39,632 nt of DNA from Verrucomicrobiota bacterium. Its GTDB lineage: Bacteria > Verrucomicrobiota > Verrucomicrobiia > Limisphaerales > UBA9464. The stretch spans positions 1-39,632 of the forward strand of contig CANIZL010000061.1 of the NCBI GenBank assembly GCA_947471985.1, given 5' to 3'. Below, in pieces: positions 73-39,632 of this stretch. The stretch's first letter is position 1. The number at the start of each line of letters is the position of its first letter. Made by a program: the position numbers and the translations under genes. The notes under the pieces were generated by a model, which saw nothing but the letters and a program-made list of their open reading frames with translations, did no database searches and was not told the origin of the DNA.

Positions 73-1041
73 TCAGCCGATGGCGTCGACGCGCAGGTCG
101 CGTAGCACGCTGATTCCCGGGAGTGGCACGCCCCGGATCGGGCGGGCCCCATCCTTCCGCTTCGGGCTGAAGCGGTCCCGGAATCGCATGAACTGCTGAT
201 CCACGAACTCCCGCGAACCCAGGACTACCCCATCGCTGAAATGCCGTATCCGCAGACGCAGCACTTGGCCCCCGCCCAACTCGCCCCCACGCGCCAGCTC
301 GGCGCGGATCGTGTCGGGGTCCAGGACCTGTTTGTCGCTCGCATTGGCGGAACCGGCCGTCACGAAGAGCAGGCGCCGGTAGGCGGCCGCCGCCGCCGGC
401 CAGTCCTGGGGTTCCAGGAAGCTCATCAATCCCTGCTGGATCCTGCGGTTGCCCACCAGCGCGGCGGCGTAGCCGCAGTGCCGATAGTCCTTCGGATCCG
501 AGACCAATCCAGCCCGGACGGGATTCAGATCAATGTACGCCGCCAACGTTTTCAAAGCGGTCGGGGAATCCTCCACCAGAAGACTCGTAAAACGTTCCGC
601 CCACAGGGTACCGAAGCGGTCGTTTCGTTCGTTGTACCACCGGCTGAAGCTTTGCTTGAACTCCTTCATGAAGGCTGAGACATCCCCCTGGCGCGCTTCC
701 ACCGACGCCCGGATGTTGGCATCGATCTTCCCCGTCTTTTTCAGGCTTTCCTGCGCCAGCACGGTCCACACGCCCTGCGGGCCGTAGAACTCCGTCAGCT
801 TCTCCAGCAGCGCCTCCTCGGTGAGTTCGGTCGATGGGGGAATCCGCACCAGCAGGTGGAAGTGGTTGGACATCATGCAGTAGGTCAGCACCTGCACCCC
901 GCAGAAGCGGGCCAGGGGCCAGAGGAGCTGGACCAACTTCTCCTTCCCCAGGTCATCCAACAGCATTTGCCCGCCCACAATCCGGGAAAGGCAGTGATAC
1001 ACCGCCGTCTCTCCCACCGGTTTGATCCGTTTCAGTCTCAT
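73..1041 (-). CDS. REP-associated tyrosine transposase (RAYT, Y1_Tnp family)
   Basis: A 322-residue protein of the IS200-like Y1 transposase superfamily. The metal-binding HUH-type motif is HFHLL (H60, H62), preceded by CMMSN as in RAYT proteins. A helix with the segment SRWYNERNDRFGTLW (about 133-147) carries Y136, the candidate catalytic tyrosine, and is followed by the conserved AYIDLNPVRAGLV (168-180). The C-terminal extension (about 255-322), with a SDGVVLGSREFV segment, resembles that of long environmental RAYTs and is absent from the roughly 165-residue E. coli TnpA-REP. RAYTs are known to nick and join single-stranded REP hairpins and are usually single-copy domesticated genes, not parts of an IS. 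I see no second transposase gene and no IS ends. Short repeats begin about 135 bp beyond its start codon, which suits a RAYT. The reading frame is intact. Confidence 0.9.
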   Translation of the reverse strand: MRLKRIKPVGETAVYHCLSRIVGGQMLLDDLGKEKLVQLLWPLARFCGVQVLTYCMMSNHFHLLVRIPPSTELTEEALLEKLTEFYGPQGVWTVLAQESLKKTGKIDANIRASVEARQGDVSAFMKEFKQSFSRWYNERNDRFGTLWAERFTSLLVEDSPTALKTLAAYIDLNPVRAGLVSDPKDYRHCGYAAALVGNRRIQQGLMSFLEPQDWPAAAAAYRRLLFVTAGSANASDKQVLDPDTIRAELARGGELGGGQVLRLRIRHFSDGVVLGSREFVDQQFMRFRDRFSPKRKDGARPIRGVPLPGISVLRDLRVDAIG

Positions 1042-9172: not shown

Positions 9173-9309
9173 CTCGAAAACGCACACCCTGGTGGGCACC
9201 TCGCCGGCGCTGATCCAACCAGCATGGTCGATTTACAGTGAGGCCGCCCTCAAATCGGGCCGGCATGGCGGTTCTTCGGAAGCCTTGGGTGTCGATCACA
9301 CTCCTCTGC

Positions 9310-9340
9310 AAAGCGGTAGGGGACTACCGCAGTCCACGAC
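9310..9340 (+). repeat. Hairpin repeat, solo copy (copy A)
   Basis: A 31-bp element with two overlapping hairpins: GCGGTAGGGGACTACCGC (7-bp stem, loop GGGA, 9313-9330) and GGACTACCGCAGTCC (5-bp stem, 9321-9335). It starts AAAGCGG and ends CCACGAC. It lies in the 263-bp gap between the PQQ-like gene and the aldose epimerase gene; I see no gene in that gap. Other copies are at 15537-15567, 15662-15692, 39190-39220, 39324-39354 and 39394-39422. Confidence 0.85.
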
Positions 9341-9435
9341 GCTGGCGCGACTTCTCACGCGGCAAGGTGAACGTCCCAGTCGCACCCGGCGCGGCAAAAC
9401 TTCCCTCTGCGGATTCCTCCCGTAGGGTTCCCGCC

Positions 9436-10353
9436 ATGTCTACAGCGACGGCATTGGTGGAACTCCGCGACGATACCGGGGCGATTGCCTGGGTGCGACC
9501 CGATCTGGGAGGCTGGCTCCTGCGCTACGCGCGCCCCCTGCCCGGCCATGGTTTGATCGAAGCCCTGCGCTACGACCCGGCGGTCGTGGACCGTTATCCC
9601 AAGGAAATGTGGGCCGGCAACCCGCTGCTCTTTCCCCACGTCAGCTTCAACGCCGCCCGCGATCAGGAAGGCCAATACGAACTCAACGGCACCCTGTACC
9701 AATCGCTTCAGCATGGCTTCGGCCGCCGGGTGCCCTGGAGCGTGGCCGCCTCCACTCCCAGTTCGGTGACCCTCGAGCTGTGCGAAGGTCCCGGCACCCT
9801 GCCGTCGTATCCCTTCCGTTTCCGCCATCGCGTCACCTACAGCCTCGTCGGCGGTCGACTCGAAATGCTCCAGACCGTGGAGAACACCGACACCCAGCCG
9901 CTCCCGTTCAGCACCGGCATCCATCCGTATCTGAACGTGCCGTTGAAGCCCGGCAGTGATCGCGCGCAGTGCCACCTCCGACTCCCCCGCTGCACGCGGT
10001 TCAATCCCATTGGCAAGTGCGAGGAATTCTTCACCGAGCCCGTGGCGGAACAAGCCTGGCCCGTGAGCCGCGACGTCAGCACCGCGCTCTTCTTTGGGGA
10101 GTTCGCAGAAAAGGAAATCGCCCTGGTGGATCCCGCCGCGGGCGTGGAAGTGGTGGTCAATTTTGCCGAAAGCCCGGACTACCGCTTCGCCGCCCTGTGG
10201 AGCCGGACCACCGACGCTCCCTTCTATTGCATCGAGCCGTGGACCGCCCTGCCCAACAGTTTTGGGCGTGGCGAGAGCGATCTGAGCATCCTCCCGCCGG
10301 GCGGTGAATTCCGCGCCCGCCTGTGGCTGGACGTCCGCGCCACCACCGCCTGA
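9436..10353 (+). CDS. Aldose 1-epimerase family protein
   Basis: A 305-residue cytoplasmic protein of the galactose mutarotase-like superfamily, which interconverts the alpha and beta anomers of aldoses. The catalytic set is visible: H93 in LQHGFGR, H163 in STGIHPYLNV, and the base E267 in YCIEPWTALPNSF. NPLLFPHV near 62 is also typical. I choose the ATG at 9436: the open frame extends upstream but runs through repeat copy A and has no protein-like sequence there. It is the first gene of a same-strand run (epimerase, COG0523 GTPase, WD40, lipoate ligase, hydrolase), with a 96-bp gap to the next gene. It could equally act on a phosphorylated sugar; substrate is not readable. Confidence 0.85.
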   Translation: MSTATALVELRDDTGAIAWVRPDLGGWLLRYARPLPGHGLIEALRYDPAVVDRYPKEMWAGNPLLFPHVSFNAARDQEGQYELNGTLYQSLQHGFGRRVPWSVAASTPSSVTLELCEGPGTLPSYPFRFRHRVTYSLVGGRLEMLQTVENTDTQPLPFSTGIHPYLNVPLKPGSDRAQCHLRLPRCTRFNPIGKCEEFFTEPVAEQAWPVSRDVSTALFFGEFAEKEIALVDPAAGVEVVVNFAESPDYRFAALWSRTTDAPFYCIEPWTALPNSFGRGESDLSILPPGGEFRARLWLDVRATTA

Positions 10354-15482: not shown

Positions 15483-15536
15483 TTTACCATTAAAAATGGC
15501 ATAAAAACCACCCTTCGCGTCGGGCATCGCGATAGC

Positions 15537-15730
15537 GTCGTGGACTGCGGTTGTCTTCTACCGCTTTGGATTGCGGCGTGACGGCAGTAGCGCCCCCGGG
15601 GAAACTGCCGTACCTGCCCGCGGGAAATTCGGAGGCCCTTCCGGCTCGTACGCTCGTCTCCAAAGCGGCAGAGGACTGCCGCAGTCCACGACCTCGCGGA
15701 ATTTCCCCGCCGCGTCAGTAGTCGCGATAG
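15537..15730. repeat. Inverted pair of hairpin repeats (copies B1 and B2)
   Basis: B1 (15537-15567) is in reverse and B2 (15662-15692) in forward orientation, 94 bp apart. B2's hairpin is GCGGCAGAGGACTGCCGC, where copy A has GCGGTAG/CTACCGC: the T-A pair became C-G on both arms, a compensatory change. B1 has the GCGGTAG arm opposite CAACCGC, leaving one mismatch. B2 is followed by a flank starting ACCTCGCGGAATTTCC (15690 on) and ending CGCGATAG (15723-15730); B1 is preceded by GCGATAG. The same flank occurs in the 39 kb cluster, so the unit is modular, like a BIME. Confidence 0.85.
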
Positions 15731-39019: not shown

Positions 39020-39632
39020 TACCGGCCAAGTGATACAGAAAATGCCTACAGGCAATCCCAAAGTGGGGATCTGGAAGCTGGGCGGACCAGGAATCGGGCC
39101 CGGACTCCTGAGACAAGGGGACAACGGCGGAGCGATAATGAAGTCAAAACCTCGCGGAATTCACCCCGCGCGTAGGTAGTCGCGATAGCGTCGTGGACTG
39201 CGGTTGTCCCCTACCGCTTTTCAATGCGGTGCGGACCTACCCGAGGCATTTACGAAAAACCCCAAGCGACGCCCGCCAGAGATTCGTCCTTTCGCCGCCT
39301 ATCCGGCTCGCTCGTCCCTTTCCAAAGCGGCAGAGGACTGCCGCAGTCCACGACCTCGCGAAATTTTCCCGCCGCGTCGGCCGTCGTGATACCGTCTTGG
39401 ACTTGGGGAGTCCTACCGCTTTGCCATGCGGCACGGACACGTCCGAGGCGTACCAAAAAATTCAGCACCAGCCCGCCATATGCACCGATACCCTACCCCT
39501 TCCCACCCGGGGTCGCCGGGCAGCCGATTCCCACCCCCACTATTGCCGAGAGACCAAACAGATTTGCCACCACCGAGCAGTAGAAATCAGGATGCCGCCA
39601 ATGCCCCGCCAAACTCCCCTCTCAAAGTGCAC
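39020..39632. other. Intergenic region with hairpin repeats, no gene seen
   Basis: About 610 bp running to the window end. It contains three copies of the hairpin repeat (listed separately). Open frames here run through the repeats and are not protein-like. The last 200 bp are GC-rich and unremarkable. Confidence 0.6.
39149..39422. repeat. Hairpin repeat cluster (copies C1, C2, C3)
   Basis: C1 (39190-39220) is reversed, C2 (39324-39354) forward and C3 (39394-39422) reversed. C1 is preceded at 39149-39188 by the flank seen after B2 (ACCTCGCGGAATT... ending CGCGATAG), and C2 is followed by a diverged version (ACCTCGCGAAATTTTCC...). C2 keeps the GCGGCAG/CTGCCGC stem found in B2; C1 keeps the GCGGTAG arm with the same CAACCGC mismatch as B1. 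The C1-C2 spacing (103 bp) is close to that of B1-B2 (94 bp), and both spacers end with related CCGGCTCG...GCTCGTC sequence. Confidence 0.85.

Follow-up and report, generated by a model that had tools for sequence, protein, structure and literature searches.

REP-type hairpin repeats of Verrucomicrobiota with nearly fixed unpaired flanks and a linked RAYT-type transposase gene in related genomes

REP elements are common non-coding repeats of bacteria. The closest described systems to the repeats analysed here are the REPtrons of E. coli, Stenotrophomonas and Marinomonas, in which intergenic palindromes occur in arrays and flank a gene for an HUH/Y1 protein (PMC2817692, PMC8266576), and the BIMEs of E. 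coli, in which palindromic units alternate (PMC2817692). By the account in PMC8266576, REP recognition by a RAYT has been studied in vitro for few GTAG-type systems only; in E. coli TnpAREP the residues that contact GTAG are W94, Q95, E100, H101 and R104 (PMC6006769). Hairpins without GT[AG]G are described for TnpAY1 subclass 2.6 (RAYT group 5) and for class 3, and the same account gives no REP-like sequences for subclasses 2.1 and 2.3 (PMC6006769). The GTAG and CGTC superfamilies are extragenic palindromes that form dimers and clusters; a strong enrichment in GTAG repeats is reported for Opitutus terrae (Verrucomicrobia), and the CGTC repeats are reported without a transposase (PMC3733652). 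Finally, two inverted REPs that form a longer hairpin make up a REPIN, and a RAYT is considered to propagate REPINs as a population (PMC3116915, PMC8049555).

The window, by which we mean the whole stretch of DNA analysed here (39,632 nucleotides), is contig C61 of G000, a Verrucomicrobiota assembly of 6.38 Mb in 180 contigs that is 96% complete. An earlier note on it had described six copies of a 31-bp element with a covarying stem, never inside a gene. The copies do all lie outside gene calls, and the stems were quoted correctly, GCGGTAG/CTACCGC at 9310 and GCGGCAG/CTGCCGC at 15662 and 39324. The count needs one correction, since five full copies and one decayed copy are spread over the three gaps: the sixth (39394) is a remnant that is matched neither by a 28-nt pattern with up to three mismatches nor, at E<=0.1, by R1, a covariance model built from alignment A1 of 47 distinct G000 copies. 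The same pattern finds exactly five copies in the window and none in 100 dinucleotide shuffles. The features are as follows.

73 to 1041, minus strand: member of a longer, multi-copy family of Y1 transposases, about 350 aa with a C-terminal part (Y1_Tnp match)
9307 to 9342, plus strand: single class A REP, GCGGTAG/CTACCGC, seven of seven pairs intact (R1 57.9 bits, E 2.2e-11)
15535 to 15570, minus strand: class A REP, left arm of an inverted pair (R1 57.5 bits)
15571 to 15658, no strand: spacer between the two arms, within the long hairpin that both REPs are predicted to form together (fold prediction)
15659 to 15694, plus strand: class B REP, GCGGCAG/CTGCCGC, right arm of the inverted pair (R1 62.6 bits, E 1.2e-12)
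15695 to 15730, no strand: right part of a unit of about 196 bp that is tandem elsewhere in G000 (nucleotide matches, spacing table)
39188 to 39223, minus strand: class A REP, left arm of a second inverted pair (R1 53.5 bits)
39321 to 39356, plus strand: class B REP, GCGGCAG/CTGCCGC, right arm of the second inverted pair (R1 62.6 bits)
39394 to 39424, minus strand: decayed REP with part of the hairpin missing, adjoining the copy at 39321 to 39356 (read from the sequence)

Two subclasses can be told apart. Class A mostly ends in GACGC and mostly reads GCGGTAG...CNACCGC, and class B has GACCT at its end, most of its copies carrying GCGGCAG or GCGTCAG...CTGCCGC. The single copy at 9307-9342 sits in a gap (9173-9453) between two co-directional gene calls. 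The copies at 15535-15570 and 39190 both read GCGGTAG...CAACCGC and have an unpaired A-A at the sixth stem pair; the base-pair swap that had been noted is present, but two of the five window copies (15537, 39190) break a stem pair, which went unmentioned. The class A and class B copies of the pair at 15535-15694 are predicted to fold on each other into one long hairpin, and for the stretch 15525-15730 the fold has a z of -7.60 with RNA and -6.76 with DNA energies, none of 200 shuffles being equally stable with either energy set. Such a longer hairpin from two inverted REPs is what is described for REPINs (PMC3116915, PMC8049555).

Our search of the rest of the genome indicates that the element is abundant and ordered. 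R1 gives at least 135 matches in G000 at E<=0.1 (150 candidates scored); after the weakest (C104:22315) was dropped, 134 copies of 36 nt each remained for clustering. The genome-wide count proposed as a check in the earlier note is therefore not a low one. The copies group into 54 clusters, of which 18 consist of one copy only, and many copies stand in tandem arrays of about 196 bp. Among the 80 distances between neighbours within clusters, 45 are -+ at 124-133 and 31 are +- at 70-74, with three same-strand distances and one +- at 308 making up the rest, so that 76 of 80 are opposite-strand pairs in two narrow spacing ranges, the order typical of BIMEs. Array neighbours are, by eye, mostly one class A and one class B copy, and in this the two subclasses resemble the alternating palindromic units of E. 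coli (PMC2817692). The right part of the unit, as at 15695-15730, joins a class B copy to the next class A copy in the arrays; a 65-nt query of this part plus the class B copy matches 50 places in G000 (E<=2.5e-9, 80-100% identity over 39-68 nt). On contig C4 lies the largest cluster, with 14 copies and one interruption, a gap of about 940 bp between C4:45264 and C4:46203 (L260, G000:C4:41141-50330).

No copy among the 134 reaches more than 5 nt into a gene call, the calls coming from a simple purpose-made ORF scorer and the intergenic share of the called stretches being 14%. For 25 of the 54 clusters no gene is called on one side in the fetched stretch, and many of these lie at contig ends; the arrays thus seem to break the assembly, and the copies are probably undercounted. 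The family has the general character of a REP, a palindrome of 20-40 nt in high copy number and mostly between genes.

Does the stem covary? Within G000 we find that it does so weakly. In the 63 distinct copies, on all of which pairs were counted before they were reduced by hand to the 47 of A1, pair 5 is T-A in 30 and C-G in 24, pair 6 is paired in 36 and unpaired in 27, and pair 4 is paired in 49 and unpaired in 14; all seven pairs are present in 41 of the 134 copies. In A1, 88.8% of cells are paired against 84.4% in shuffles, and the covariation score of 0.147 (0.077 shuffled) is reached in none of 500 shuffles, an excess that could come from the two inherited subclasses alone. The T-A/C-G swap is mainly one difference between these subclasses. 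A second stem, GGACTG/CAGTCC, which overlaps the reported one, was tried and rejected: in A1 it is paired in 78.0% of cells against 78.2% in shuffles, it has no both-sided change, and copies of relatives with CACTCC break it as well.

Across genomes the result is much stronger. In alignments made by fitting the copies to the structure of the model, a procedure biased towards pairing, 98.4% of cells are paired in A2 (52 copies from 29 loci, from a search of relatives; 87.4% shuffled, at most 74.6% slid), 97.8% in A3 (41 copies from 29 loci, from a search of the phylum; 87.0% shuffled, at most 83.0% slid) and 99.2% in A5 (70 copies near RAYT transposase genes; 80.4% shuffled, at most 67.7% slid). 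Cells changed on both sides number 33, 40 and 69, and four, four and five of the seven pairs, respectively, have changed on both sides. The covariation score of each of the three alignments is reached in none of 500 shuffles and is far lower in the slid controls. Parsimony on the RAYT protein tree, with one well-paired REP per RAYT locus and 22 to 37 of the 37 loci counting per pair, requires at least 27 switches of Watson-Crick type in stem pairs 3-7 over the 37 loci, the minima for pairs 3, 4, 5, 6 and 7 being 1, 4, 12, 5 and 5, and each switch alters both sides. Compensated switches thus recur independently on the gene tree, and neither of the two refuting outcomes named in the earlier note was observed. 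Loop length across genomes runs from 3 to more than 30 nt. The stem sequence and the loop of the hairpin change freely between genomes, and the pairing is kept. The claim that the folded form is maintained, by selection or by the copying machinery, holds in its conclusion but not on the evidence first given for it, which was the subclass difference; we hold it because of the cross-genome covariation and because a transposase gene is flanked by like hairpins. Stems may decay once the RAYT is lost, but the figures point both ways: stem pairing is 88.6% in G000 (134 copies) against 99.0% in the copies of three RAYT-bearing genomes, and two other genomes without a RAYT hit have 97.1%, in copies taken from or near the best-scoring places.

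What does not vary freely is the unpaired sequence on either side. The flanks, AAA on the 5' side of the stem and A[C/G]TCCA on the 3' side, are nearly fixed. In 258 distinct rows from other genomes (A2, A3, A5, A7, A8 and A9), fractions that are inflated because the search model selects these bases, the three 5' positions are A in 243, 234 and 235, and the 3' positions read A in 255, C in 145 or G in 107, T in 256, C in 256, C in 249 and A in 243. Unlike in GTAG REPtrons, no GT[AG]G foot is present at the base of the stem, and GTAG occurs inside the paired stem of some copies. Nor is there a CGTC foot; on the other strand of class A copies CGTC is present seven bases from the stem, and class B is without it. 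The family thus shares dimers, clusters and extragenic palindromes with the GTAG and CGTC superfamilies and differs from both in that neither tag stands at the foot of the stem, the families of Opitutus being compared by description only (PMC3733652).

The repeat is not confined to G000. R1 matches at least 33 of 58 relatives (at most 118 candidates scored in each), and R2, a covariance model built from A2, has matches at E<=0.001 in at least 37 of the 240 phylum genomes searched (28 candidates scored per genome). Among the repeat-bearing loci scanned for Y1-type proteins, six have one, and at L173, L322 and L320 a short Y1-type gene lies directly between or beside the repeats. A protein profile from these three genes, A4, finds a strong member (at least 200 bits) in 16 of the 58 relatives. 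Genomes with a strong member of this RAYT clade nearly always carry repeats. With p values that are guides, the genomes not being independent, an R1 repeat is present in 15 of 16 RAYT-positive against 18 of 42 RAYT-negative relatives (p 3.4e-4), ten or more R1 copies occur in 10 of 16 against 7 of 42 (p 1.2e-3), and in the phylum sample, where some genomes called repeat-negative by R2 may carry repeats, a strong member (at least 185 bits, a line set after seeing the list) occurs in 18 of 36 repeat-positive and in none of 43 repeat-negative genomes (p 3.3e-8). At E<=1e-15 the phylum counts become 22 of 36 and 2 of 43, the latter two scoring 104 and 88 bits. The other 18 repeat-positive genomes of that sample are without a strong member, 14 of them without any match at E<=1e-15.

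Of 40 clade RAYT loci, 16 from relatives and 24 from the phylum sample (at least four further strong matches were left out), 31 have REPs within 400 bp on both sides, six on one side and three on neither, with R2 hits counted up to E 0.05 or 0.1. The arrangement of a REPtron, an HUH/Y1 gene with REPs on both sides, is thus found in relatives and not in G000. Similar-looking hairpins, with GGA[C/G]TGC on one strand, were seen by eye at L344, L352 and L379, which have no model hit, and are left uncounted. Six of six loci of weaker relatives have no REPs by R2, and 13 further Y1 loci gave one weak R2 hit only (E 0.035). With R1, clear hits among 47 Y1 loci were confined to L061 and L087/L176, and a second scan, covering 23 further Y1 loci, had no hit better than E 0.9, which is partly a miss of the model. 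The reading that no Y1 gene is linked to the repeats was wrong, R1 being too narrow: at L347, a place that L228 overlaps, R2 does find REPs. In four genomes of the family of G000 (G005, G030, G022 and G010) the REPs that flank the RAYT gene closely resemble those of G000, an example being AAAGCGGTAGAGGACTACCGCACTCCAAGACGC at L342. Beside the RAYT gene of G026, the hairpins found have a longer loop than the dispersed copies looked at (30 loci). Hairpins of different stem sequence stand, by eye, side by side next to one RAYT gene at L374 and L377, an arrangement that points to more than one REP subfamily for each enzyme.

The encoded proteins are short, their RAYT matches spanning about 175-200 aa, with the motifs mostly NHYH (NYYH in one member), W[HF]N and Y[VT]H[QR]N[PA]. 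The NCBIfam model REP_Tyr_transpos recognises all members examined (17 of 17), the first of which scores 76.3 bits and so stays under the 80-bit cut-off, and Pfam Y1_Tnp matches 9 of 17 at E<=0.01. Among PDB entries only TnpArep 4er8 matches clearly (E 6.8e-10); a kinase follows at E 0.23. One invariant tyrosine, which we take to be the catalytic one, aligns to the YIYINP segment of 4er8. The HUH motif, the tyrosine and the homology to TnpAREP that mark a TnpAREP/RAYT protein are all found, and the likely cognate enzyme of the repeats is a short HUH/Y1 protein of this kind, found in relatives. Unlike E. coli TnpAREP, the clade keeps only part of the residues that contact GTAG (PMC6006769): in the alignment to 4er8, W94 corresponds to W and E100 to E or D, whereas Q95 is replaced mostly by H or F, H101 by T in 17 of 17 and R104 mostly by T.

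How could a genome with so many copies lack the enzyme? In G000 there is no strong clade RAYT, one match to A4 at E 8.3e-4 and none to A6 at E<=1e-15, and an A4 search finds no strong member in G008 (117 R1 matches) or G019 (55) either. Either the G000 copies are orphans whose RAYT has been lost, or the repeats have caused an assembly gap into which the gene falls; if it is among the arrays, it could also sit on a contig too short to be binned.

Taken together, our analysis makes it highly probable that the repeats are REP/BIME hairpins with nearly fixed flanks, linked in relatives to a RAYT and spread by it, and that in G000 they are orphans or have their gene in a gap. By analogy with work on TnpAREP (PMC8266576), the RAYT protein would bind the folded single-stranded hairpin, read a flank as its guide, and cut and rejoin the hairpin. 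Cutting and rejoining would in turn spread the repeats, and copies would survive in the gaps between genes.

We consider it unlikely, though compatible with spread by a RAYT, that the repeats, whatever their origin, are now sites owned by the host, for protein binding, for DNA bending or as hairpins that stabilise or end mRNA. Such sites would fit the absence of copies from gene calls (none of 134 in G000 and none of 30 in G026) and flanks about as conserved as the stem. They fit poorly with the lack of a consistent gene side: of the 29 G000 clusters that have a called gene on either flank, 14 lie in divergent, 13 in co-directional and 2 in convergent gaps, and in G026 the numbers are 2, 17 and 9 of 28. 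Moreover, such free variation of the stem sequence and of loop length would hardly be tolerated by a factor that reads the DNA sequence, and Rfam matches no family in the window and only a tRNA in eight repeat-bearing loci. A preference of single copies for divergent gaps (8 of 9 in G000 with both flanks called) was considered and dropped, being post hoc and opposite to the trend in G026.

Another mover inside G000 would be the longer Y1 transposase family of about 350 aa, of which the window holds a member (73-1041, minus strand); that this family moves the repeats appears very improbable. It is multi-copy, Y1_Tnp having 26 matches in 22 places in G000, with eight translations viewed and all of the longer type, and the L061 query has 41 matches in G008, of the same family as G000. 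One REP copy (L061 2556-2591) lies about 42 bp behind the stop codon of the family member L061 (C1:131173), and in G008 a relative, L087 (the place of L176), has a REP about 1.3 kb behind it. However, only one of 15 G000 loci has a REP within the roughly 3 kb fetched, the other 14 being unlinked to repeats when examined with R2, and the copy behind L061 is probably there by chance. Five repeat-bearing genomes of one genus (27-68 copies) have no L061 match at E<=0.001, while the same query matches six of six other genomes, and the stretch conserved just before the start codon in relatives of the family is, by eye, not a REP. Several contigs start or end inside copies of this family.

It is hardly credible that the inverted pair of 108 bp represents a MITE, meaning a shortened DDE transposon whose terminal inverted repeats are about 35 bp long. 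In its favour, G026 commonly shows isolated inverted pairs, their offset constant at about 72 nt; against it, each arm is itself a palindrome with compensated changes, copies also stand singly (18 of 54 clusters) and in tandem, and the linked gene encodes an HUH/Y1 protein.

RAYT-spread REP hairpins are thus a known kind of system, similar to the REPtrons of E. coli, Stenotrophomonas and Marinomonas in intergenic palindromes, arrays and a palindrome-flanked HUH/Y1 gene (PMC2817692, PMC8266576); their foot and the RAYT clade were not found described in the open-licence literature, and overlap with a published grouping is possible. As in subclass 2.6 and class 3, the genes are flanked by atypical hairpins without GT[AG]G, and as in 2.6 there are hairpin copies elsewhere in the genome too (PMC6006769). 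Compared by motif only, the clade does not have the motifs of subclass 2.6 (mostly Bacteroidetes; NH[LIV]H, WQ, YIH[QN]NP), and unlike class 3 (NHVH, a Y----Q motif and a CnGA foot) it has NHYH and the A[C/G]TCCA flank; NHYH occurs in subclass 2.8 also, and the clade may fall inside 2.6, inside 2.8 or elsewhere (PMC6006769). The string 'Verrucomicrob' is absent from the main text of that paper, and in the open-licence literature, as far as its text was seen, only the GTAG families of Opitutus terrae (PMC3733652) were found for REPs or RAYTs of Verrucomicrobia. There is, in our judgement, an even chance that a phylum-wide REP-RAYT lineage of Verrucomicrobiota swapped the GTAG guide for AAA/A[C/G]TCCA, with enzyme contacts replaced to match, and so coevolved a separate recognition.

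More generally, many natural pairs of enzyme and hairpin in one phylum, with a different foot, would make a recognition code readable by comparison, and such a code could be tested by swapping flanks. Repeat-rich genomes in which no RAYT was found could show the fate of a REP population after loss of its enzyme. A last, minor observation comes from G026 (L229-L257): alignment of 23 of its copies gives a consensus in which the repeat is followed on its right by degenerate repetitions of a short unit resembling CTTCAACC.
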